NCBI GenBank assembly: GCA_022841325.1
Contig: JALHRS010000027.1
Coordinates: 1 to 64,000 of the forward strand
DNA length: 64,000 bases
DNA from: Lysobacterales bacterium
Lineage (GTDB): Bacteria > Pseudomonadota > Gammaproteobacteria > Xanthomonadales > SZUA-5
Reading direction: 5' to 3'
In this document: positions 6,265 to 21,659 of the stretch, piece after piece
Layout of the letters: every line of letters begins with the position of its first letter
How positions within the stretch are numbered: position 1 is the first letter of the stretch
Program-made: the position numbers and the translations under genes
Notes under the pieces: model-generated
What the model was told of the DNA's origin: nothing
Databases searched by the model: none
What the model saw: the letters and a program-made list of their open reading frames with translations, nothing else

Positions 6265-6297
6265 AGGGCTGCTTCGGGCCGGCATCGGCGCTTCACC

Positions 6298-6441
6298 GAT
6301 GTCGGAATCCGCCTGACCGGCGGTGGTGCAGGGATGGTGGCTTGGGGTGGGCGGGTTCCGATCTACGCCGATGTCGGAATCCGCCTGACCGGCGGTGGTG
6401 CAGGGATGCTGGCTTGCGGCAGGCGGGTTCCGACCTACGTT
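6298..6441. repeat. 72-bp direct tandem duplication
   Basis: Two copies of a 72-base unit beginning GATGTCGGAATCCGCCTGAC lie at 6298-6369 and 6370-6441, differing at a handful of positions. The second copy runs into the 3' end of the minus-strand permease gene (stop at 6435-6437). Confidence 0.9.
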
Positions 6442-7868
6442 GCGCCGTCGAAGCGGATGGGCCAGCGGATGGCCTGGGCGCGGGCGTAGGCGTAGAAGCC
6501 GCCGGCGCCGGCGAGGACCAGGGCCGCCACCAGGATCGGTGCCCTGGAATACAAGGCCGCCGAGACACACAGCGAGGTCGGGATGGCGCCGAGCATGCCC
6601 AGCACGATCATGCCCAGGATCAGTCGGGGTCGCTCCGAATCCAGCAGCATCAGGACCACGCCGAGACCGGCCAGACTGCTGGCGAAAGCGCCGGCAGTGC
6701 CGCCCAGCAGCAGCGGCCAGCGTTGCTCCTGCGGATAGAGCAGGCTGAGCACCGCCAGCAGCGTCACCGCGAACAGGGTGGATGGCAGCAGCGAGCGAGT
6801 CAGCGCCGAGGCCACGGCTTCGCTGAACGCCAGCTGCGAACGCGGCGCCGACGCCAGATACACATCGACCAGACTGGGGCGCAGCATCAGCGTCGACCGA
6901 TGCAGTTGCTGGAAGCGCAGCGCGGTCAGCAAGCCCACATAACTGGCCACCAGGCTGATCGGCGGCGGACCGGACGTACGCTGGCCGAAGATCCAGGTGA
7001 TGAAGCCGACGAACGCGGCCGTGATCAGTGTCTCCAGGGCCATGCCCCGCCAGTGGGTATTGGGCAACAGCACCATGCCGATGGCGCGGTCTGTCGAGCC
7101 GCGACGACCCTGCCTCAAGGCTCGCAGGGCGCCGTCAAAAGCGGTGGCCGAGAAGCGGTGCTGCAGCTTCTGCATCCAGATCGCGATGCCGCCGGCCTGA
7201 CTGATGCGGGCCTGATCGGCAGCGCTGCTGAGGTCGGCGACATTGAGATCGGCCGGTGACAGCGTCGGCGCACCATCGCTGATCCGCATCAATCGACGCC
7301 AGACGATGCGCATCAGGATCGCGGCCACTGCCAGGAGCAACAGCGGCGACAGTGCCGATCCGGTCAGTGCCAGCCAGATTTCCTTCGCCACATTCGGCCA
7401 GATGCCCAGCGGCAGGGGCAACAGCCAGATCAGTGCCGCCCAGCGCAGGCCGCTGCCGGTGGCCATCGACGTCGACAGCAGCAGGCAGAGGCCACCGACC
7501 ACCAGCAGGCCATTGACACCGCAGGCATGGGCGATGGCGCCGGGCAGCACGGCGAAGACCAGCAGATACCAGGCCCACACCGTGGCCAGTGCGCTGCGGA
7601 AACGCGGCAGCGTCTGCGATTCCGGTCGGCAGACCGAGGTCCAGACCATGGCGCTGAGCATGCCGATGAACATCAGCGCATAGGCGTGCAGTGCCAGCGA
7701 GCCATACACCCACCTGGGCTTGCCTGACCACACCAGCACGCCCCAGCCTGCCGCCATCATCAGGCCCATGAACAGCGCCGCCAGCGGATAGCGCTGCAGC
7801 GGCAGCTTCAGCAGGGCGCTGACCGAGGAGGCAAACTGCCGGCGTTGCCGGATCGAGGGCATGGTCAT
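6435..7868 (-). CDS. Integral membrane component of an ABC transporter
   Basis: 477 residues with many hydrophobic segments, for example PLAALFMGLMMAAGWGVLVW near residue 30, a cluster at 85-170, and a dense C-terminal block (SLLYPQEQRWPLLLGGTAGA to the end). A polar ~60-residue loop with LSSAADQARISQAG separates the halves, and no solute-binding motif is present. The ATG overlaps the TGA of the ATPase gene by one base (TGATG), so the two are translationally coupled. This is the permease of a two-gene ABC-2-like export system; the substrate cannot be told. Confidence 0.75.
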   Translation of the reverse strand: MTMPSIRQRRQFASSVSALLKLPLQRYPLAALFMGLMMAAGWGVLVWSGKPRWVYGSLALHAYALMFIGMLSAMVWTSVCRPESQTLPRFRSALATVWAWYLLVFAVLPGAIAHACGVNGLLVVGGLCLLLSTSMATGSGLRWAALIWLLPLPLGIWPNVAKEIWLALTGSALSPLLLLAVAAILMRIVWRRLMRISDGAPTLSPADLNVADLSSAADQARISQAGGIAIWMQKLQHRFSATAFDGALRALRQGRRGSTDRAIGMVLLPNTHWRGMALETLITAAFVGFITWIFGQRTSGPPPISLVASYVGLLTALRFQQLHRSTLMLRPSLVDVYLASAPRSQLAFSEAVASALTRSLLPSTLFAVTLLAVLSLLYPQEQRWPLLLGGTAGAFASSLAGLGVVLMLLDSERPRLILGMIVLGMLGAIPTSLCVSAALYSRAPILVAALVLAGAGGFYAYARAQAIRWPIRFDGAT

Positions 7869-8761
7869 CAGCCGAGCTCGATGAAGATGTCTTCCAGCGA
7901 CATCGGTGAGGTCACGGCGCTGGCGCCGAAGCGCGCCGCGAGATTCTCCACCGAGGTCGCGTCGAGGCCATCGACGATCCAGTGCGCGCCGCCTTCCTCT
8001 ATGGTCTGGCGCAATATGCCTGGATGGCGCCAGTCTGCCGGCGGCAGCGCCCCCAGCAGATCCACCCGGCGCACCCGCGACTTCAGAGTCGGCAGATCGC
8101 AGGAGAACTGAATGCGCCCGGACTTGAGCAGTGCGATCTCGGCGTCGGCGCGTTCCAGGTCGGTGGTGATATGGGTCGAGAACACCACGGTCTTGCCCGG
8201 GCGCCGGGTAATCCGCAGCAGCTCATCCAGGAACAGCCGCCGCGTCTGCGGATCCAGACTGGCCACCGGTTCGTCCAGCAGCAGCAGATCCGGATCGGGG
8301 GCGATGGCGCGGATGATCGCCAGCTTCTGGCGCTGGCCCTGGGACAGTTCGCCGATCTTCTTGGCGGCATCGACTTCCCAACGTCCCAGCAGGCCGTCCA
8401 CCATCTCGCTGTTCCAGCGCTCGTAGAAGGCGGCGTGAAAGGCCAGGTACTGGCGTACCTTCATCCACGGAAACAGGTCGAAGCTCTGCGGCACGTAGCC
8501 GATCCGGTGCAGCGTCTCCGGGCGCAGCTCGGTCACCGCCTCGCCAAACAGGGTGATGTCGCCGGCGTCCACCGGCGACAGCCCGAGTGCGCAGCGAATC
8601 AGCGTCGACTTGCCGGCGCCATTGCGCCCGAGCAGGCCGACCACCCGCCCGGTGGGCAGGGACCAGTCCAGATAGTCCAGTACGGTCTGCTTGCCGAAGC
8701 ATTTGCGCAGACCCTTGATGCGCAGGGCGCAGTCGGTTGGCGAGGCTGGGGAGCTGTCCAA
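7868..8761 (-). CDS. ABC transporter ATP-binding protein
   Basis: 297 residues, one nucleotide-binding domain. Visible motifs are Walker A GRNGAGKST (near residues 45-53), Q-loop YVPQSF, signature LSQGQRQK, Walker B LLLLDEP and the H-loop STH. The signature uses Q in place of the second G (LSQGQ), common in ABC-2 exporters. The C-terminal ~80 residues (SRVRRVDLLGAL... SLEDIFIELG) are the typical extension of CcmA/NatA-type ATPases. It energises the permease encoded immediately downstream. Confidence 0.92.
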   Translation of the reverse strand: MDSSPASPTDCALRIKGLRKCFGKQTVLDYLDWSLPTGRVVGLLGRNGAGKSTLIRCALGLSPVDAGDITLFGEAVTELRPETLHRIGYVPQSFDLFPWMKVRQYLAFHAAFYERWNSEMVDGLLGRWEVDAAKKIGELSQGQRQKLAIIRAIAPDPDLLLLDEPVASLDPQTRRLFLDELLRITRRPGKTVVFSTHITTDLERADAEIALLKSGRIQFSCDLPTLKSRVRRVDLLGALPPADWRHPGILRQTIEEGGAHWIVDGLDATSVENLAARFGASAVTSPMSLEDIFIELG

Positions 8762-9003: not shown

Positions 9004-11880
9004 TCAGAAGCGCTGGTTCAGCTGCAGATACCAGAATCGACCCGGGATCGGATAAGCCGGGTCAAAGGAATTGAAGGTGCTGGAATAGGACACCGGCGGG
9101 TCGCGGTCGAAGAGGTTCTGCGCGCCGAGCACGATGCGGCCTTGCCAGGGCGTCTGCCAGCCGATCTGCGCGTCGACGTAGGTGCGCGAGGGCAGATCAT
9201 TCTCGCCGAAGCCGGGATAGGTGCTGCTGTCGACTTCCGGGCGCGAGCACAGATCGGTGCGTCCGGAGCGCACCGGAGTGGAGCAGGCTTCGTCCAGCGC
9301 CGAGTAGTAGTGCAGGCCCAGCGCTGCCGACCAGTCCTGGTAATCCCAGGCCAGCTGCAGATTGGAGCGCAAGCGGAATCCGGGCTCCAGGAAGAAGGAA
9401 TGACCCAGCGCCGAACGCCGGCCGGAACCGCGCGGCACTTCAGTCTCGTAGCGGCTGTAGTAACTGCTGTCCCAGCGGATACTGAAGCGGCCGATGGCGC
9501 TGTCGAAGCGGTAGCTGGCGCTGAAATCATAGCCCTCGACATCCAGCGCCCCGGAATTGAGCAGGCGCGCGTCGAGAAACAGCAATTCGCCGTTCGCATC
9601 GCGTAGCGTGCGGTTACAGGCTTCGGCAGCGCCGCTGTCCGCACAGGCTCGCAGCAGTTGGGCCGCGTCCACCGGCGTGATGGCATTGTCGATACGCACG
9701 CGGTACCAGTCCAGGCTGAGATCCAGGCCGGGAATGGCCGTGGGGCTGAAGACCACACCAGCGGTGCGGCTGGTCGAGCTCTCCGGCTGCAGCGCCTGAT
9801 TGCCGCCGGTCTGCAACTGGTACGGCGCGCCGACGGGCTCGTAGGCGCCACCCGGTACACCGTCCGCGGCACAGTTGCCGCGCTGGACGCTGTTGGGCTC
9901 GTTGAAGGCGGCGCAGGGATCGTCTTCGAGGGCTCCGAAACTCTCGGCATTGGGGAAGAACAGCTCGGACACGATCGGTGCGCGCAAGCCTTCGGAATAG
10001 CTGACCCGCAACAGCAAGGGCTCGATCGGCTTCCAGTGTAATCCGCCCTCGATATTGCTGGTGAAGCCGAAGCTGTCGTAATCGGACCAGCGCGCCGCGA
10101 CGCTGGCTTCCAGCCACTCGGCGCCACGGACCTCGGCCAGCAGCGGTAGCGATAGTTCGGCGTAGACCTCGTTGACCCGGGTATCGCCGCCGAAATTGCT
10201 GTTTGCCAGATTCTCGTTGGCGGCACGGCGCGGATCAATGCGGCTTTCGCCCAGTTCGCGGCGATGTTCAAGGCCTGCCGCAAAGGCCAGCGAGCCGGCC
10301 GGCAGGTCCATCAGCTCGCCGGACAGACCCAGGCTGTAGACCCAGGATTCGGTTTGGGTGCGGTCCTGTCCCTGGTAGTACAGGTAGTCGACCATGGCCG
10401 GGGTCAGGGCTTGCGGGCCGCGAAAGGGATCCAGCGGCACGCAGTCGGCGATCGGCGCGGCCGCGCTGCCACAGCGAGCCTGACCGCTGGCGTCGCGGAA
10501 GCTGGCTCCCAGTGCCAAGGCCAGGCGGGTCGGATCGACCAGCCCGGTGCTGTCGGCCAGGACGCGCGAGCGGCCGTACACGAGATCGGCATTCCAGCTC
10601 CACTGTCGATCAGCCAGATCAATGCTGCCGGTCAGGCCGGCCGCAAACCGCAGGGTATCGGCGTCCTGATCGAACTGCCGCACCTGGCCCCCCGGCCGGA
10701 TGAACAGTCCACTGACGTTCTGGCCGAAGGGGTTGTAGACGTGATCGGCGGGCACCACGATGCGGCTGAGGCCGGGCAACACGGCACCGACCAGGATCGG
10801 GTTGGGCGCCAGCTGCTGACGCGAGCGGCGCTGATTGAACAGCAGCTGCGCGCTGGCTTCGACCGAGTCCGCGAACTGCCGATGCCCGATCAGGAACAGC
10901 GCGCTGCGCTCCTGTGGCGTCTGCAGATAATTGTCCGGCGCAAAGTTGTAGCCATCGCGGCGCGGATCGAACAAACGGTAGCCGCCGGTAGCCGGATCAA
11001 AAGTGGTTCGATTCTGGGTAAGGGGCCGATTGTCCGGACGGGAGCAGCGGCCATTGGCCGGATAGTTGCCGGCCGGATTGTAGGGGCACAGGCCGATCGG
11101 GCCGAAGCCGAACAGGCCGTTGGGGATGAAGCTGCTGGCGCCGGCAAAGGTGTCGTTGCCCGGCAGGCCGAAGGTCGGCACCGCCGAGATGCGCCGGTCG
11201 CCGGCATAGATCTCGTCCTGCCGCACATGACTCAGGCTGGCAGACAGGCCATGGTCATCGCCGGCGACGCCCCAGCTGAGTTCATGGGACTGCTGTTCGC
11301 CGTCGCCAAACTCGCTGGTTCCGAAGCGTGTGCGCAGCTCATAGCCGACAAAGTCCCTGCGCGTGATCAGGTTGACGACGCCGGCGATGGCATCCGAACC
11401 GTACACGGCCGAGGCACCGTCCTTCAGCACTTCGATGCGTTCGATGATGGCCAGCGGGATCGAATTCAGATCGACCGCGCCATCGATGCCGGCGATCCAG
11501 CGGCGACCATCCACCAGCACCAGCGTGCGCTGATCACCCAGATTGCGCAAATCGATGCGGGTGCTGCCGTCGCCGCCGTTGTTGACCGTGGTGTTCAGCG
11601 CCGCACCGTGGACGGCGAGATCCTGCAGCAGGTCGCCGAGCGAGACCTGTCCGGTCTGTTCGATCTCGGCGCGGCTGAGGATCAGCACCGGTTGCGAGGT
11701 TTCCAGGTCGACCCGCTTGATTCTGGATCCCACCACTTCGACGCCGCCGAGGCGGGTATCTGCCGGCGCCTGCTGCAACTCCTCGGCCAGTGCGGGAGCT
11801 GGTACCAGCATCCAGCTGGCTGCCAACACCAGCGCCAGTCGGCTCACGATCAAGCGGCGAGATCGGTGGCGCAGCCTCAT
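9004..11880 (-). CDS. TonB-dependent outer-membrane receptor
   Basis: 958 residues. A signal peptide (LIVSRLALVLAASWMLVPAPALA) is followed by a plug domain at about residues 45-165 (GSRIKRVDLETSQPVLILS, then EVLKDGASAVYGSDAIAGVVNLIT) and a beta-barrel ending in aromatic QLNQRF, as required for barrel insertion. It should import a ligand across the outer membrane using TonB-ExbBD energy. There is no N-terminal STN/secretin signalling domain of the FecA kind, so if it signals to the sigma factors in its operon it must do so another way. The ATG overlaps the kinase stop (ATGA). Confidence 0.93.
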   Translation of the reverse strand: MRLRHRSRRLIVSRLALVLAASWMLVPAPALAEELQQAPADTRLGGVEVVGSRIKRVDLETSQPVLILSRAEIEQTGQVSLGDLLQDLAVHGAALNTTVNNGGDGSTRIDLRNLGDQRTLVLVDGRRWIAGIDGAVDLNSIPLAIIERIEVLKDGASAVYGSDAIAGVVNLITRRDFVGYELRTRFGTSEFGDGEQQSHELSWGVAGDDHGLSASLSHVRQDEIYAGDRRISAVPTFGLPGNDTFAGASSFIPNGLFGFGPIGLCPYNPAGNYPANGRCSRPDNRPLTQNRTTFDPATGGYRLFDPRRDGYNFAPDNYLQTPQERSALFLIGHRQFADSVEASAQLLFNQRRSRQQLAPNPILVGAVLPGLSRIVVPADHVYNPFGQNVSGLFIRPGGQVRQFDQDADTLRFAAGLTGSIDLADRQWSWNADLVYGRSRVLADSTGLVDPTRLALALGASFRDASGQARCGSAAAPIADCVPLDPFRGPQALTPAMVDYLYYQGQDRTQTESWVYSLGLSGELMDLPAGSLAFAAGLEHRRELGESRIDPRRAANENLANSNFGGDTRVNEVYAELSLPLLAEVRGAEWLEASVAARWSDYDSFGFTSNIEGGLHWKPIEPLLLRVSYSEGLRAPIVSELFFPNAESFGALEDDPCAAFNEPNSVQRGNCAADGVPGGAYEPVGAPYQLQTGGNQALQPESSTSRTAGVVFSPTAIPGLDLSLDWYRVRIDNAITPVDAAQLLRACADSGAAEACNRTLRDANGELLFLDARLLNSGALDVEGYDFSASYRFDSAIGRFSIRWDSSYYSRYETEVPRGSGRRSALGHSFFLEPGFRLRSNLQLAWDYQDWSAALGLHYYSALDEACSTPVRSGRTDLCSRPEVDSSTYPGFGENDLPSRTYVDAQIGWQTPWQGRIVLGAQNLFDRDPPVSYSSTFNSFDPAYPIPGRFWYLQLNQRF

Positions 11881-14800
11881 GGGAGCTCTCCTTTCATCGA
11901 AGTCGGGTCATTCGGCACAGCGCTCTCCAGGGTGAGCGCGTAGTACAGCGGAGCCTCCATCGGCCCGTCGCCGATCCCGAGGCGCAGCGCCGAGATAGCC
12001 GCGGCCCCGGCAGGCAGTTCCAGCGTCACCGCATAGACGTGTGCGCCGAACTTGCCGTCTTCGCCGGCGCGCAAACCGCTGGGCATGGCACCGATCCAGG
12101 CGACCTTGGCGCTGGGCGCCGCCAGCTCTGGCTGCCAGGTGGTCACCACATCGCGCATGGTCATGATCTCGAGGCGGTACTCGCGACCATCGATCTCGCG
12201 CACTTCCACCAGCCCGGCGCGGCGCGGCGGGGCATTCGGGCGCAGCGGAATGTGCAACATCATCAGCACGTGCAGGCGCCTGGCGCGGACCTCGGGCACG
12301 GCAATCCAGTCGCTGTGCGGCCGGGTGGGATGCAGGGAGACCGCGGGGCCGCCGCCGCTCAGCTGCACGCCACCCTTGATCAGCCAGTCGATGCCGCCCA
12401 GGCGCTGGATGCCGAGCGCCAGGCTGATCAGCTCACCACTCTGCGCCGACATCCGTGGCCAGGGCTCATCGGTAGGCACGTTGTAGGCCGGACCCAGATC
12501 CAGCGGCACAAAGCGCGGGTCGGGTTCTGCCTGCGCTGGAGTGCCCAGGCGCCGGGCAGCCGGAGGTTCCTGCTGCCGCGCAGCCCCGGCCGATACGGCA
12601 GCACGCAATTCGGCGCGCAGCGTTGCCAGGTCATCGGCAGACAGCTCCCGTTCTGCGGCGGCCGGATTCAGGACCGAAGCCAGCCGACTCAGCGGCGCCA
12701 GTTCCAGTTCCGTCGACGGTAGCGGCCAGCTCAGCCAGTGGCCGACGATGGTCCGGCCCACCAGATGATTGCCATCCGGCGAGAAGGCCAGACGCAGGAT
12801 GCCGTCGTTGCCGCCCAGCGGTGCTGTCAGCAGGGCGCTGAGGCGCTCGCCGTTGGCCAGATCGTAGAGCTGGACCGCCCTGCGGGTAGCCAGTGCAGCT
12901 CTGCGGCCATCGCGACTCAGCGCCAGCTGCGGCAGGGTTTCTGCGGACGGCAGCGTCGCCACGCGCTCGCGCAGTCCCTCGGGACCGTAGATGCCGAGTG
13001 CGTCGCCCAGATGTCGATGGGCGATCACGCCGTTGCCCAGCGCCAGCAAGGTCGAAGCCAATCCCAGATGCTGGCGCTCGTCCACCTGCGTGGTGCTGCA
13101 GCGTTCGAGATCCCAGCGCACCAGCATGGCGCGGCGGGAACCGGCGCTGTAGTGCACCCAGGCCACGGCCCCGTCGTTGCTGATGGTGGCGGAGTCAATC
13201 GTATTGACCTTCGCGGCGGACATCGTCGGGCAGTCAGGTGCGCCGCCGAGGTCGATCAGATTGAGTGCCTGACCGGCCACGGAGGCCGCCAGCACATAGC
13301 GTCCCAGCGGATCCAGCTCGAACACGCCGGTGGTCGGCGGCAATGCCGCAGCACTGGGGCGCAGGCGTGCGACATCAAGGTCAACCACCTGGACCCGTTC
13401 GATGAAATGGCCGTCTTCATTGGCGCCGGTCCGCAGCACCAGGACCGGGGCCGCCTGCGCCAGTTCCGCGCCCAGCGGCGTGGACGGCAACACCAGCGCC
13501 TCACCGTGTGGCTCGGAACTGGCGGCATCGAAGATCCGCACGGTGCGCCCGGCGATGGTCACCAACCAGCGGCCGTCCGCGCTGAGTTCGGCGAAACCGA
13601 TGTTCTGCGGATGCTGCAGGGGCGGCGCCAGCGTGCGCCCGTCGGCGATGTCCACGAGTCGCACGGTATCGCCGGCCACAGCGACCAGTCGCCGGCCGTC
13701 GAAAACCTGACGGCCCGGCGCCAGCGGTGCGGCGTGCTCGGGACGCAGCACCGGGTCGGGCAGGCGCCAGATCGACACGGCACCCTCCGAGCCACCCGAC
13801 GCCAGCAGGCGCTGGGCCGGATCGAAGTCGAAGGCATTGGCCATGAATGGGCGACGCCCCAGAATCCGCGCCGGCATCGGCACGATGCGGTTGTCGAAGG
13901 GCGCCGGTGGCGGCAGGGTGTAAACCGCGATGGCGCTGCCCTGGCTCAGCGCTAGCTGCCCGTCAAGAAGACGCACGCGTCCTTCCCGCGCAAAGATCGG
14001 AGCCTGGATCGGCGCACTGCGCGGACGTCGGGTAGCCAAATCCCAGGCCATCAGCAATCCCGATTCCGACAGTGCCGCCAGGGTCTGTCCCTGGCGGTCA
14101 AACTCCAGCCAGCGCACCGTGTCCACCGGACTCGAGGTCAAGGCAGTCATGTTGCCATCGCGACTGTCCACCAGCAGCACCCCACCGCCCAGCGTACCCA
14201 GCGCCAGCGTCTGGCCGTCCGGGGCAAAGCGCCAGGCACGCACCAGTCGGTCGTCGTCCAGGCTCAGGGACCAGCGTGGCGCCAGTGTGCCGAAATCGAC
14301 GGCCTCGAAATGCTGGAAGTCCTCGGTGCGCAGCAGCCACTCGGCACCGGGTGCAAACAGCCACATGCTGGCACTGTCGCTGTATTCGGGCCCGACTGGC
14401 CGCCAACCATCGACCTCGTAGAAGCGATAGCGGTCGGAGAAGCGCAGCGAGGGGCTGCTGCGGCTGCGGACGATCGCCCGTTCGCCCAGCTCCGAATAAA
14501 CGATGTCGGAATGCCCTGGCGCCAGATCCGGGGGTTGCACGATGCGGCCGTCGGCGGCATCGATCAGGATCTGATCTGCGGTGGCCGGCGCGGCGAAGAC
14601 CGCCATCTGCAGCAGGTTCACCAGTAGATGTCGACCATCGGCGGTGTAACGCAGCATGCCATGCGGCATGCCGTCGGAAATCACCAATGAGCGGGTCAGT
14701 CCGTCAGTACTGGTTTCCCAGGAGGACTGGCCGCTGGCAAGGTCGAACTGCTGCACGCTGCGCTTGCCGCGGGACGAATGGCTGGCGATAGCCACGCGGC

Positions 14801-16217
14801 TGCCATCGGGCGACAGCGCCACGGACGACACCACACGGTCTGCTGCCACCGGGATCCGCTCGATGAGTTTGGGTGCGTTGGCCATCAGCGTGCCGATGCG
14901 CTGGCGCTCGAGCATCGCAGCCCGCAGATCCCCCGCGGCCTCCATTTCGGCCAGATTCTCCACCAGTGCGGGCAATCCCTGAAAGCCGTTGCCGTCGGCG
15001 AGCGCCGTTTCGGCCGTCTGCGCGCGCTCTCGCCAGAGGCTCGCTCGCGCAGTGGTGGCGCTGGCATCGGCGCGGCTCCATTGCACCGTGGTGGCCAGCA
15101 ATCCCGTCATCAGCGACAGCACGAACAGCGCGACCAGTGCGCTCAGGCGCGGTTCGCGACGAACCAGGCGCAGCCCTCGCTGCCAGCGATTCAGACGGCG
15201 CGCCGCGACCTCACGGCCCTGGAGGAAATTGCGCAGATCATCGGCCAGTGCTCCGGCACCGAGATAGCGCCTGGCAGGATCCTTGTGCAGGCATTTCAGG
15301 CAGATGGCCTGAAGGTCCAGCGGGATACGCGAATCCAGCGAGCGCGGCACCGGCGCTGGCATCGCGATCACCTGCTCCAGGGTCTCGCGAGCGGTGGCCC
15401 CGCGGAACGGCGGCCTTGCGGTCAGGGCTTCGAACAGGGTGGCGCCGAGGGCGTAGACATCGGTGCCGATACCGAGGCGGCCATCGCCGGCGGCCTGCTC
15501 CGGTGCCATGTAGCTCGGCGTCCCGGCAACTTCGCCGAGATCGCCGGCGAGGATTTCTTCAAGGCGCCGGGCCAGACCGAAATCGGCCACCAGTGGCTGC
15601 GCGGACTCGTCGAGCAGCACATTGCCGGGCTTGAGATCCAGATGCAGCACGCCCAGCCGGTGGGCATAGTCGACCGCCTCGGCGATCACCCGCATCATCT
15701 CGGCGGCCTGGCGCGGGGTCAGCGCACCGTCGCGCCGGATCTTCTCGGCCAGCGACTCGCCGGTGACCAGACGCATCGAGAAGAACGGCAGGCCGTCGTG
15801 TTCGCCGATCTCGTGGATGGTCACGATATTCGGGTGCTGCATGCGCGCCGCGCTCTGCGCCTCCAGCCGGAAGCGTTCAATGAAGCCGGCAGAGGCCCAG
15901 GGGCCGGCGGCCAGCAGCTTCAGCGCCACCGGACGATCCAGCGAATGCTGATGGGCCTGATAGACCACGCCCATGCCACCCTGACCGAGCTTGCGCTGCA
16001 GCGTGTAATCGCCAAACTGGCACTGGTCGGGATCGCTGAGGTCGAGGTCCAGCACATCGACGGCGGTCGAGGCCGGACGCAGGAACACCGAGCTGCCGCC
16101 GGCGACCATTGTCGCGGCCGGCGTCGACGCGCCAAAGGCCAGTTGCGCCAGGGCAGCCATGCCCGGATCGGCGACGCCGGATCCTGCAAATTCGCTGTTG
16201 GGAAGAGTCGGATTCAT
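11877..16217 (-). CDS. Transmembrane Hanks-type Ser/Thr kinase with predicted extracytoplasmic beta-propeller
   Basis: 1446 residues. The kinase domain spans about 68-335: glycine loop GQGGMG (78-83), catalytic Lys in VALK (100), catalytic loop HLDLKPGN (192-199), DFG (212-214) and APE (238-240). The usual HRD is HLD, a non-RD kinase. One membrane helix (about 358-378) follows, then a short coiled region, then ~850 residues of WD40/PQQ-like repeats (VSSVALSPDGSRVAIASHS, FSPDGNHLVG). The C-terminal ~220 residues look like a beta-sandwich. The topology implied is a cytosolic kinase with a periplasmic sensor. ATG and stop both overlap neighbours by 4 bases (sigma factor upstream, TonB receptor downstream). 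Confidence 0.9.
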   Translation of the reverse strand: MNPTLPNSEFAGSGVADPGMAALAQLAFGASTPAATMVAGGSSVFLRPASTAVDVLDLDLSDPDQCQFGDYTLQRKLGQGGMGVVYQAHQHSLDRPVALKLLAAGPWASAGFIERFRLEAQSAARMQHPNIVTIHEIGEHDGLPFFSMRLVTGESLAEKIRRDGALTPRQAAEMMRVIAEAVDYAHRLGVLHLDLKPGNVLLDESAQPLVADFGLARRLEEILAGDLGEVAGTPSYMAPEQAAGDGRLGIGTDVYALGATLFEALTARPPFRGATARETLEQVIAMPAPVPRSLDSRIPLDLQAICLKCLHKDPARRYLGAGALADDLRNFLQGREVAARRLNRWQRGLRLVRREPRLSALVALFVLSLMTGLLATTVQWSRADASATTARASLWRERAQTAETALADGNGFQGLPALVENLAEMEAAGDLRAAMLERQRIGTLMANAPKLIERIPVAADRVVSSVALSPDGSRVAIASHSSRGKRSVQQFDLASGQSSWETSTDGLTRSLVISDGMPHGMLRYTADGRHLLVNLLQMAVFAAPATADQILIDAADGRIVQPPDLAPGHSDIVYSELGERAIVRSRSSPSLRFSDRYRFYEVDGWRPVGPEYSDSASMWLFAPGAEWLLRTEDFQHFEAVDFGTLAPRWSLSLDDDRLVRAWRFAPDGQTLALGTLGGGVLLVDSRDGNMTALTSSPVDTVRWLEFDRQGQTLAALSESGLLMAWDLATRRPRSAPIQAPIFAREGRVRLLDGQLALSQGSAIAVYTLPPPAPFDNRIVPMPARILGRRPFMANAFDFDPAQRLLASGGSEGAVSIWRLPDPVLRPEHAAPLAPGRQVFDGRRLVAVAGDTVRLVDIADGRTLAPPLQHPQNIGFAELSADGRWLVTIAGRTVRIFDAASSEPHGEALVLPSTPLGAELAQAAPVLVLRTGANEDGHFIERVQVVDLDVARLRPSAAALPPTTGVFELDPLGRYVLAASVAGQALNLIDLGGAPDCPTMSAAKVNTIDSATISNDGAVAWVHYSAGSRRAMLVRWDLERCSTTQVDERQHLGLASTLLALGNGVIAHRHLGDALGIYGPEGLRERVATLPSAETLPQLALSRDGRRAALATRRAVQLYDLANGERLSALLTAPLGGNDGILRLAFSPDGNHLVGRTIVGHWLSWPLPSTELELAPLSRLASVLNPAAAERELSADDLATLRAELRAAVSAGAARQQEPPAARRLGTPAQAEPDPRFVPLDLGPAYNVPTDEPWPRMSAQSGELISLALGIQRLGGIDWLIKGGVQLSGGGPAVSLHPTRPHSDWIAVPEVRARRLHVLMMLHIPLRPNAPPRRAGLVEVREIDGREYRLEIMTMRDVVTTWQPELAAPSAKVAWIGAMPSGLRAGEDGKFGAHVYAVTLELPAGAAAISALRLGIGDGPMEAPLYYALTLESAVPNDPTSMKGELP

Positions 16218-16966
16218 GGCGTTTGCGCCAGCACGCGCAACAGCGCGGCACGCTCAGCTTCCAGATCGCCGGAACTGGACACGGTCTCCGCCAGTTCCGC
16301 CTCGACCAGATCGCGAAAGCGCTGGCGCAGGCGGCGCACGGCCACCTGGATCGCCAGTTTGCCGATGCCGAGTTCCTGCGTCAGTTCGTGCACGCGCTGC
16401 GGATTGGGTTCTACCGTGAGATAGGGGGCGAGACGCTCGAACATCAGCGTCCGGCCACTTTTCTCGGCTTCGACCCTCAGCCGATCGCGGCTGCGCGAGA
16501 TCACCTGCAGACCAAAGCTGCGTTCGAAGATCGATTCCGGTGTCAGCGCCAGGCCGTGTTCATCGAGCAAGCGCTGTTCCAGTTCCGCGACCGCCTGCGG
16601 TGGCTCCGGCAGCGTCAGCGGAGGCGGCGCCGGTGGCGCCTCGACAAAGGACTGCAACTGATCCAGCAGATAGACCCGGAAACGGCCGGACTCGGCGGGA
16701 TTGCCGCTGCGGATGGCATCGGCGAGGTGCGCGAAGAAGCGCCGACAGCCATGCTGGGCGGCCTCGGGTTCCAGTTGCGAACTGCGCAAGAAGGCGTAGA
16801 CCGGGTACCAGTAATTGTGGCTGAGTTCGGTCAGCGGGTCGTTGCCCGACCCGCTGGAATCGGCGCGCAGCGCCGCCACCAGTGACCAGCGGGTATGGCC
16901 GAAGGCATCGGCTGACGATCCGAGTCCGGGATTTTTGCTCTGGTGCTGCACGGCCCACCTCCACAC
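16214..16966 (-). CDS. Sigma-70 family (ECF-like, TRWS-type) sigma factor, divergent
   Basis: 250 residues. Near residue 25 it has HTRWSLVAAL, the N-terminal signature of a group of ECF-like sigma factors common in Planctomycetes and present in Xanthomonadales. Region 2 is diverged (EAAQHGCRRFFAHLADAI where a typical factor has AEDLTQ.FF). The C-terminal part has a plausible region 4 helix-turn-helix (LGIGKLAIQVAVRRLRQRFRDLV). It may be a true sigma factor or a degenerate partner of the paralogue encoded 43 bases upstream. Its stop overlaps the kinase start by 4 bases. Confidence 0.7.
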   Translation of the reverse strand: MWRWAVQHQSKNPGLGSSADAFGHTRWSLVAALRADSSGSGNDPLTELSHNYWYPVYAFLRSSQLEPEAAQHGCRRFFAHLADAIRSGNPAESGRFRVYLLDQLQSFVEAPPAPPPLTLPEPPQAVAELEQRLLDEHGLALTPESIFERSFGLQVISRSRDRLRVEAEKSGRTLMFERLAPYLTVEPNPQRVHELTQELGIGKLAIQVAVRRLRQRFRDLVEAELAETVSSSGDLEAERAALLRVLAQTP

Positions 16967-17009
16967 CCCTGTCTTTCAATCCATGGCATACCGGCGGTGG
17001 CGGCGTCGA

Positions 17010-17777
17010 TTACAAGCTGGCCCGACCTCTGCCTGATCGCCTGGCCGCCATGTCCTGCAACGCCCCGCCCAGAGCCTCGCGCAGAATCTGCATCTCGGCT
17101 TCGACCGCTTCCTCCGAATCCACGGTTTCTGCCAGTTCGGCGCGAACCTGGGCACGAAGCCGGTGCCGCAAGCGATGGGTCGCGACCGCCAGGGTGTTGC
17201 TGCGCATGCCGAACTCTGCCGCCAGGCGGGCGTAATCCTCGGGATCCGGGGCCTCGATCAAAAAGCCGCGCAGCGCATCGAACAGCCTCAGCTTGCCGTT
17301 GCCTGCGGCCTCCTCGCGCAGCGCAGCCAGCGCCCGATCGACCACCGTCAGCGCCCATTGGCGCATGAACACGCGCTCCGGCCCGGCATCTTCGGAAACG
17401 TGCAGTTCCTCGATCACCTCGAGGCCATCGGCTATCTGCGCCCGAATCGTGCTGCTGCGCGCAGCGGCGGCATTGATCAGAAAACGCTTCAGCGCCGTCA
17501 GCAGCAGCGCCCGGAAGCGACCGCGCAGCGGATCGGCCTGGGTATCGATGCGGCGCTCGATCAGCGCCGTGAAAAAGGCCTGGGTCAGATCCTCGGCTTC
17601 GCTGGACGATCTGGCCCAGCGTCTCACATAGGCCAGCACCGGGCGCCGGTAGACCTGGCACAGGTGTGCGAGTGCCGAACGCGCGGCATCGGGGTCATCG
17701 CGACCGGCAAGAAAGACGCTCCAGCGCGTGGTGGGAAACATGCCCATCGCAGATCCCGGATCGGCCACCCAAGGCAC
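17010..17777 (-). CDS. ECF-like sigma factor, TRWS-type
   Basis: 255 residues. FPTTRWSVFLAG near the N terminus and a well-kept region 2 (SSEAEDLTQAFFTALIER, then GRFRALLLTALKRFL) mark a TRWS-type ECF sigma factor. Region 4 is visible as YARLAAEFGMRSNTLAVATHRLRHRLRAQV. ATGs at 17747 and 17741 are alternative starts closer to the TRWS motif. It is the first gene of the operon sigma-sigma-kinase-TonB receptor and is the better conserved of the two sigma factors. No anti-sigma factor is encoded nearby, so control by the kinase is a reasonable guess. Confidence 0.85.
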   Translation of the reverse strand: MPWVADPGSAMGMFPTTRWSVFLAGRDDPDAARSALAHLCQVYRRPVLAYVRRWARSSSEAEDLTQAFFTALIERRIDTQADPLRGRFRALLLTALKRFLINAAAARSSTIRAQIADGLEVIEELHVSEDAGPERVFMRQWALTVVDRALAALREEAAGNGKLRLFDALRGFLIEAPDPEDYARLAAEFGMRSNTLAVATHRLRHRLRAQVRAELAETVDSEEAVEAEMQILREALGGALQDMAARRSGRGRASL

Positions 17778-17816
17778 AGGACTATAGCGAGGAGCCGGGC
17801 GCCGCGGAAAACGGGA

Positions 17817-17957
17817 AACGGGGCACGGGGCACGGGGCAGGGGAAGAGCATGCGACCTGGCGCCTTACTGAAACCAGACAAGTCTGGACCCACCAATGGC
17901 CGGCAATGTGCCAGCCTTTCCCGCCCCGTGCCCCGTGCCCCGTGCCCCGTGCCCCGC
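17817..17957. repeat. Inverted heptamer arrays flanking a half palindrome
   Basis: A GGGGCAC array (17817-17843) and its reverse complement CCGTGCC array (17923-17957) flank a single CCAGACAAGTCTGG palindrome (17875-17893). The island separates the sigma operon from the divergent hutU. Confidence 0.88.
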
Positions 17958-19676: not shown

Positions 19677-20105
19677 TGGTTGTTGGTTGTCGGTTGTCGG
19701 TTGTCGGTAGAAGCGGGCTCACGCGGAGACGCGGAGGGCGCGGAGACGAGCGGTTGTCGGTTGCTGGTTTCGGCAATGGAGCGGGAGTTGGAGCTTGGTG
19801 CCGTTATCGGTGCGTCTTGCCATGAAGCCGCGTGAAATTGGCCGTCGCCCGAGGCGAGGTGCTGCGGCGCCGCGTTGCCAGAGGCTGCAGTAGCGTAGGG
19901 TGGATCCGCCGCAGGCGTATCCACCGTTGAGTTTGCGGCAAGCTTGGCGGCAGAATCCGCTGCGCGGGTTCCGCCCTACCGAAGCTGTAGCTGTCCGTCG
20001 CAGCTTTTCTCCGTGCCCTCCGCGTCTCCGCGTGAGTTGCTCCTACCGACAACCGGCAACCGACAACCGACAACCGACAACCGACAACCGACAACCGACA
20101 ACCGC
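19677..20105. repeat. Heptamer-armed inverted repeat island between hutU and pgk
   Basis: The gene-free stretch between the two convergent genes is symmetric. Outer arms are GGTTGTC repeats (19677-19708) and GACAACC repeats (20046-20105). Inner 22-base arms CTCACGCGGAGACGCGGAGG.. (19718-19739) and their exact reverse complement (20015-20036) follow. The middle holds a GTAGGGTGGATCC...CCGCCCTACC repeat (19895-19980). The right array ends at the pgk stop codon. No ORF is believable here. Confidence 0.9.
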
Positions 20106-21284: not shown

Positions 21285-21352
21285 GGGCAAGTTTCTCGGG
21301 CTGGCGGGTCTTGGGGGATAGGATAGCTGGCGGGCAGGGGGCGCGGGACTTC

Positions 21353-21659
21353 GGGACTCGGGACTCGGGACTCGTCTCGCGACAGCGTCATTGCGAGCGC
21401 AGCGAAGCAATCCAGTGCTGTTGCAAGGGGCATCTGGGAGTTGTTGCTGCGCTTGCCTCGTCCCGCATGCAAGCCATGCCTGCAAGACGATGCGGGCTGC
21501 CTGGGAGGGCGCCGCGCTGCGGCGCCGCTTTGCACCAACCGAAGATCAAGAGCGGCCGCGCAGGCGCGCATCCCTCCACATGCACGCTCCGATCCGGGCG
21601 ATTCGTTCATTGGGCCTGGGCCGAACGCCCGTAGCCTTTCCCCGTGCCCCGTGCCCCAT
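21353..21659. repeat. Mosaic repeat island: GGGACTC array, half CAATGACG element, GGCGCC repeat, CCGTGCC array
   Basis: Within the 580-base gap pgk-receiver gene, four modules occur in order: GGGACTC heptamers (21353-21374), a half copy of the GCGTCATTGCGA...CAATCCAG element (21385-21415), a copy of the GGGCGCCGCGCTGCGGCGCC repeat (21504-21577), and a short CCGTGCC array (21639-21659). The remaining ~200 bases before the next gene show no feature. Confidence 0.88.

Follow-up and report, generated by a model that had tools for sequence, protein, structure and literature searches.

Extracytoplasmic function (ECF) sigma factors linked to Ser/Thr kinases include EcfK-PknS of Xanthomonas citri and EcfP-PknT of Vibrio parahaemolyticus, both of group ECF43, in which the ECF gene lies beside the gene of a Hanks-type kinase that spans the membrane and has a periplasmic domain, and no anti-sigma gene is present (PMC13147305, PMC8999054). 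The ECF43 mechanism, in which a phosphate stands in for missing acidic residues, is the only one worked out for kinase-linked ECF sigma factors, and reviews point out that other groups may differ (PMC8999054). Here we describe a four-gene operon on the minus strand of contig JALHRS010000027.1 of a Lysobacterales bacterium (GCA_022841325.1), of which positions 1 to 64,000 were analysed (the window). In gene order it encodes the TRWS-type ECF sigma factor SIG1, the sigma-derived protein SIG2, the membrane Ser/Thr kinase KIN and the TonB-dependent receptor TBDR. As in the ECF43 pairs, a sigma gene adjoins a Hanks-type kinase and there is no anti-sigma gene. In distinction to them, SIG1 keeps the acidic motif of region 2.2, which is not exchanged for uncharged residues and a conserved threonine, and a second sigma-like protein and a co-encoded outer-membrane barrel are added; the ectodomain of KIN is a double propeller, while that of PknS carries TPRs.

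Four other described systems share single traits with the operon. The closest in logic is the PhyR-NepR-EcfG partner switch of Alphaproteobacteria, in which a true sigma factor is controlled by PhyR, itself sigma-like but with degenerate contacts to core and promoter (PMC8103513); SIG2 is likewise sigma-like with degenerate contacts, but the operon has no receiver domain, no NepR and no histidine kinase, KIN being of the Ser/Thr type. SigO-RsoA of Bacillus subtilis is also a pair of sigma-related proteins encoded together, with one domain per protein, whereas SIG1 has both domains and SIG2 is a full-length relative. FecI-FecR-FecA combines an ECF sigma factor and a TonB receptor in one signalling locus, but relies on STN and FecR, in whose place the operon has a kinase. 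In Planctomycetes and Verrucomicrobia TRWS sigma factors also adjoin kinases, but these pairs have one sigma factor with intact motifs and, where readable, HRD kinases, as opposed to the HLD kinases found beside two sigma genes.

The reading we favour, to which we give a probability of about one half, is that SIG1, a single competent sigma factor, receives through the sigma-derived SIG2 the signal of a double-propeller Ser/Thr kinase that is matched to an outer-membrane barrel. The initial annotation of the operon had described four minus-strand genes with two 4-base overlaps, two sigma factors, a receptor without STN, no anti-sigma factor, and a kinase made of a cytosolic kinase domain, one helix and an extracytoplasmic propeller. 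The open reading frames agree with this layout (Table 1), SIG2 and KIN overlapping by 4 nt at 16214-16217 and KIN and TBDR at 11877-11880. No match to an anti-sigma family was found among the operon and the adjacent genes scanned. TBDR has Pfam matches to Plug and the TonB barrel and none to STN, Plug beginning at residue 60, and the topology of the kinase is borne out by Pfam, a single helix and an AlphaFold2 model. The EcfK-PknS precedent cited there is real (PMC13147305).

Searches of related genomes first showed SIG1 and SIG2 in tandem in further families of Lysobacterales, and a scan of a genome collection with a SIG2 alignment then gave 79 loci. The order SIG1-SIG2-KIN recurs in 31 further loci among these, all of Lysobacterales or of unplaced Proteobacteria grouping with them. 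The arrangement is therefore beyond chance adjacency, and the linkage of sigma genes to the kinase, on which the initial annotation had staked its proposal, is present in related genomes. Loci of Verrucomicrobiota, Planctomycetota and Acidobacteriota carry a single TRWS sigma gene, mostly with a kinase nearby. SIG1 lies directly upstream of SIG2 in 37 of 40 sampled SIG2 genes, and the remaining three start no more than 113 bases from a contig end, with the upstream gene out of view. Some variation is present: in L058 and L102 the kinase of the SIG1-SIG2 pair is not in view, L160 has SIG1 with an HLD-type kinase whose repeat-rich ectodomain is not a propeller and no SIG2, and SIG2 of L161 is even more degenerate. 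Two SIG1-SIG2 sets are found in tandem in L049 and L070, an extra SIG1-like gene stands in front in L048, and L047 and L057 have a second kinase. Cultured carriers of the cassette include Pseudoxanthomonas daejeonensis DSM 17801 (L068/L031) and Rhodanobacter sp. B05 (L050). A literature search that did not extend to subscription papers, among them the complete ECF classification, returned no description of the cassette.

Of the two sigma factors of the initial annotation, the first stands and the second is in doubt, since SIG2 has lost residues expected of a working sigma factor and is conserved in that state. SIG1 matches Sigma70_r2 of Pfam (E 6e-6, 26.4 bits, cutoff 24), reads EAEDLTQ in region 2.2 with acidic residues and glutamine retained, and has both region 2 and its own intact region 4. 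SIG2 has no match in Pfam, where no receiver domain is found either, or in NCBIfam, but aligns with sigma factors over all its 250 amino acids and is 33% identical to SIG1 (E 1.5e-22). Motifs were counted in 118 aligned genes (SIG1, SIG2 and single sigma factors). The Asp and Gln of the DxxDxxQ-type motif of region 2.2, the contact to core RNA polymerase (PMC13147305, PMC8999054), occur together in 35/35 SIG1 and 42/43 single sigma factors, as against 4/40 SIG2. The KRG motif, which directly follows region 2.4, is found in 33/36 SIG1, 42/43 single sigma factors and no SIG2 (0/40). In the turn of region 4, NT occurs in 35/37 SIG1 and 0/40 SIG2, 33 of which have PL; this loss is specific only relative to SIG1, as just one of 43 single sigma factors has NT. 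The four motif positions of region 2.2 hold a mean of 0.93 acidic residues in SIG2 and 2.37 in SIG1, and the SIG2 of the window, reading AAQHGCRRFF where SIG1 has EAEDLTQAFF, is among the most degenerate copies. The single sigma factors were gathered with SIG2-derived patterns, which biases them toward SIG2-like sequence; the motif difference is thus conservative.

In a tree from which the motif columns had been removed, all 40 SIG2 form one clade (Shimodaira-Hasegawa-like approximate likelihood ratio test, 100), sister to the single TRWS sigma factors. Pairwise ratios of non-synonymous to synonymous substitution rates (dN/dS) are 0.08-0.45 in SIG2, slightly higher than in SIG1, so that SIG2 is held under selection in its altered state; these ratios and the open frames argue against a decaying pseudogene. 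The AlphaFold2 model of SIG2 is well formed (mean predicted local distance difference test, pLDDT, 90.8), but it is uninformative on function, because Foldseek against the PDB gave nothing below E 0.001, with ferritins and anti-sigma-bound ECF sigma factors mixed at E 0.6-2. A search of solved structures with the sigma alignment had yeast RAP1 as its top, spurious match, followed by ECF SigE at E 0.009. From its sequence SIG2 is a conserved and probably non-canonical sigma factor, and SIG1, on the best reading, the sole conventional sigma factor predicted in the operon.

KIN matches Pkinase of Pfam at 2e-46, along with WD40 and propeller families, and has the Hanks-type features, namely the VALK lysine, the catalytic aspartate within HLDLKPGN, and DFG. 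All 33 tested kinases encoded beside two sigma genes, that of the window included, have the non-RD HLDLK catalytic loop, whereas kinases beside single sigma factors in other phyla are HRD wherever the motif is readable. The kinase domains of the dual-sigma loci form one clade with support 100, into which one kinase from a single-sigma locus on contig C28, in the same genome as the window, also falls. In KIN one segment, about residues 356-380, is strongly hydrophobic, and in every complete kinase a single transmembrane helix precedes a stretch of about 1060-1140 residues (1293 in L081). The ectodomain of KIN was modelled by AlphaFold2 (pLDDT 82) as helices, two beta-propellers and a C-terminal beta domain, and Foldseek places it with tandem-propeller proteins at E about 1e-24. 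The propellers should lie outside the cytoplasm, because there is a single helix and the kinase needs cytosolic ATP. Single-pass Ser/Thr kinases with periplasmic WD40 domains in the same layout are described in Planctomycetota (PMC11032199).

In 22 loci, window included, the gene that follows the kinase was assignable. In 12 of them, again with the window, it encodes a TonB receptor; in the other 10 it encodes a small outer-membrane barrel of about 310-350 amino acids with weak matches to PF13505 and PF13557. The TonB receptor, which the initial annotation had made an integral part of the pathway, is accordingly not constant in the cassette, the small barrel being the alternative. Loci with the small barrel mostly also encode a protein of about 170 amino acids with an apparent signal peptide at its start. 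The mature part of this family begins with the conserved ACGEVMYRMGGALRY; examples are L055:9779-10279 and L066:15002-15541, and there is no Pfam match (checked for L055). When the two partner types are placed as labels on the tree of kinase ectodomains, one change is needed, on a branch with support 100, against a mean of 7.7 for shuffled labels, and the same labels on the same loci need five changes on the SIG1 tree and four on the SIG2 tree. In L057, where the barrel adjoins the second of two tandem kinases, the second kinase was labelled. In four loci fetched afterwards (L146, L154, L155 and L156) the partner was in each case that predicted by the nearest ectodomain. On the strength of these label changes ectodomain and barrel belong together, through function or through joint transfer.

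This last alternative deserves most weight among the competing explanations. The outer-membrane gene could be a regulon member or a passenger that is carried along with the kinase and stands outside the sensing, the match to the ectodomain resulting from joint transfer of neighbours. KIN and the outer-membrane gene are indeed adjacent and overlapping in the window, and receptors of the FecA type signal via STN, which TBDR lacks. Kinase and barrel would however have to part repeatedly from SIG1-SIG2, as seen in the different numbers of changes on the trees, which is possible but is left unexplained without a functional link. We therefore see it as a possibility to be kept in mind, though not the one we would choose.

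Turning to the favoured reading, the place of SIG2 between SIG1 and the kinase was approached by rank-correlating the pairwise distances across 28 loci in which SIG1, SIG2 and KIN are all present. The coefficients are 0.66 for SIG1-SIG2, 0.70 for SIG2-KIN and 0.50 for SIG1-KIN, and the partial correlations are 0.49 for SIG1-SIG2 given KIN, 0.57 for SIG2-KIN given SIG1 and 0.08 for SIG1-KIN given SIG2, to be read with the shared, hence non-independent, ancestry of the loci and the liberal nature of partial Mantel-type tests. The order survives when columns are sampled to equal size, when similar loci are left out and when loci are drawn at random, and the SIG1-KIN term is the lowest in every subset. 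This would fit, as weak evidence, a physical link between SIG1 and KIN provided by SIG2. Several observations besides the statistical limits weigh against the reading. SIG2 stands in the middle and evolves faster than the other two, which could itself produce such correlations, and single sigma-kinase pairs elsewhere work without SIG2. Both Asp and Gln are kept in four of 40 SIG2 and Asp in 22, and the basic helix of region 4 (KRLRQRF; K/R-RLRQRF) is strongly conserved and could still bind DNA. In L148 SIG2 and KIN are intact while SIG1, upstream of SIG2 on the minus strand, is a remnant of N- and C-terminal ends joined with the middle missing, and L159 combines SIG1 with a propeller-kinase sequence of interrupted reading frame and has no SIG2.

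Three further explanations concern the role of SIG2. It may be a working but intrinsically weak sigma factor which KIN activates by adding charge to region 2.2, as PknT does with EcfP, the operon then holding one constitutive and one switchable sigma factor. Linkage of sigma factor and kinase is the known signature of phosphorylation-controlled sigma factors, EcfP having no acidic motif (PMC8999054), and the SIG2 motif is poor in acidic residues. However, the conserved Thr/Ser that EcfP-type sigma factors have in the motif was not found in the 40 SIG2, whose one such column is Ser/Thr in 15/40 and is so more commonly in SIG1 and the single sigma factors, and the glutamine and the KRG motif are gone as well; we hold this explanation to be unlikely. 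Slightly less likely again is a two-subunit sigma factor in the manner of SigO-RsoA, with SIG1 providing core binding and -10 recognition and region 4 of SIG2 supplying or altering -35 recognition. SIG2 is always encoded beside SIG1, and its basic region 4 helix is strongly conserved next to a degenerate region 2 side, but SIG1 has an intact region 4 and so misses no part, and the NT pair is gone from the region 4 turn of SIG2. That the two are independent sigma factors for different promoters, the motif loss reflecting unusual core contact only, is improbable: four SIG2 do retain Asp and Gln, the model of SIG2 is well formed and some kinase-linked ECF sigma factors are atypical at the region 2.2 motif (PMC8999054), but three separate sigma motifs are gone in nearly the whole clade and the position of SIG2 depends on SIG1.

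In the mechanism we propose for signalling through SIG2, the double-propeller ectodomain of KIN would read a periplasmic or outer-membrane state tied to the matched barrel, here the TonB receptor, and the cytosolic kinase domain would relay the signal by phosphorylating SIG2 or the SIG1-SIG2 complex. SIG2 would act as a sigma-derived regulatory subunit in an anti-sigma factor's stead, most likely as a sigma mimic by which SIG1 is held or positioned, and the action of KIN on SIG2 would free SIG1, or make it competent, for its regulon. Beyond the anatomy of the cassette, the steps are inferred: the binding of SIG1 to SIG2, the action of the kinase on SIG2, the sign of the control, the ligand and the regulon. 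As SIG1 retains its acidic motif, it would not need the EcfP route of a phosphate supplying missing charge, and the ECF43 mechanism would not transfer directly to this operon.

Upstream of SIG1, CATAAT or TATAAT occurs 12 times in 35 orthologous regions, several of them related so that the counts are non-independent events, against 0.55 expected, in all cases 51-82 nt before the TRWS codon. The window has TATAGT as its own candidate -10 element (17786-17781), while a scan of the window with strict consensus gave no full promoter. This suggests transcription of the operon from a housekeeping promoter, in which case SIG1 would be made without a signal and control would be needed after synthesis. 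An ECF-type -35/-10 pair was also sought upstream of SIG1, but the best gapped words, in 7/35 regions, are GC-rich, stem in part from shared coding sequence and are unconvincing. The start of SIG1 is more likely ATG 17747 than GTG 17777, because orthologues begin M..F.TTRWS and TATAGT lies only 3 nt before the GTG. SIG2 may start at GTG 16951, which is preceded by GGAGGTGG.

Table 1. Features of the SIG1-SIG2-KIN-TBDR operon, in positions of the window.
Feature	Position	Strand	Basis or remark
SIG1, TRWS-type ECF sigma factor, region 2.2 and region 4 motifs intact	17010..17747	-	longest open reading frame 17010-17777, from GTG 17777; ATG 17747 preferred
SIG1 core RNA polymerase contact motif EAEDLTQAFF (region 2.2)	17571..17600	-	read from sequence
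TATAGT, candidate housekeeping -10 element of the operon	17781..17786	-	orthologous upstream regions
SIG2, conserved sigma-derived protein without core-binding and 2.4-side motifs	16214..16966	-	possible start GTG 16951
SIG2 segment AAQHGCRRFF in place of the region 2.2 motif	16733..16762	-	position counted from translation
KIN, membrane Ser/Thr kinase, 1446 amino acids	11877..16217	-	open reading frame, Pfam
KIN cytosolic kinase domain, residues 71-319; non-RD HLDLKPGN loop, lysine VALK, DFG	15261..16007	-	
KIN single transmembrane helix, about residues 356-380	15078..15152	-	hydrophobicity
KIN extracytoplasmic double WD40-type beta-propeller	12723..14870	-	AlphaFold2 pLDDT 82; Foldseek E 1e-24, tandem-propeller proteins
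KIN C-terminal beta domain, without Pfam match	11916..12512	-	AlphaFold2 model
TBDR, TonB-dependent receptor (Plug and barrel, without STN)	9004..11880	-	Pfam

Downstream of the operon on the same strand are found an ABC transporter ATPase (7868-8761) and a hydrophobic protein of 477 amino acids without Pfam match (6435-7868), which probably form a unit of their own, being set off from the operon by some 240 bases. A 72-bp unit is present in two copies of 93% identity at 6296-6439. Short tandem arrays with 7-bp units, several located between genes, are found at 17818-17843 (ACGGGGC), 17923-17956 (GCCCCGT), 19678-19708 (GGTTGTC), 20045-20104 (ACCGACA) and 21344-21374 (CGGGACT); the units differ and the period is constant.

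The cassette is a new variant of signalling by sigma factor and Ser/Thr kinase, and if the control of SIG1 by SIG2 holds, SIG2 would be a new kind of regulator. We put forward only tentatively, at somewhat under even odds, that SIG2 is the first known sigma factor turned into a dedicated regulator, an anti-sigma factor or adaptor, of a neighbouring sigma factor, where a Ser/Thr kinase is in control and the cassette pairs its sensor ectodomain with an interchangeable outer-membrane barrel. For the question of how kinase-linked ECF sigma factors with an intact core-binding motif stay off, SIG2 is a conserved candidate for the controlling part, and as the cassette occurs in cultured environmental strains this question is directly testable. 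If true, the cassette would connect the outer membrane to transcription by way of a Ser/Thr kinase, with no need of STN or of an anti-sigma factor.

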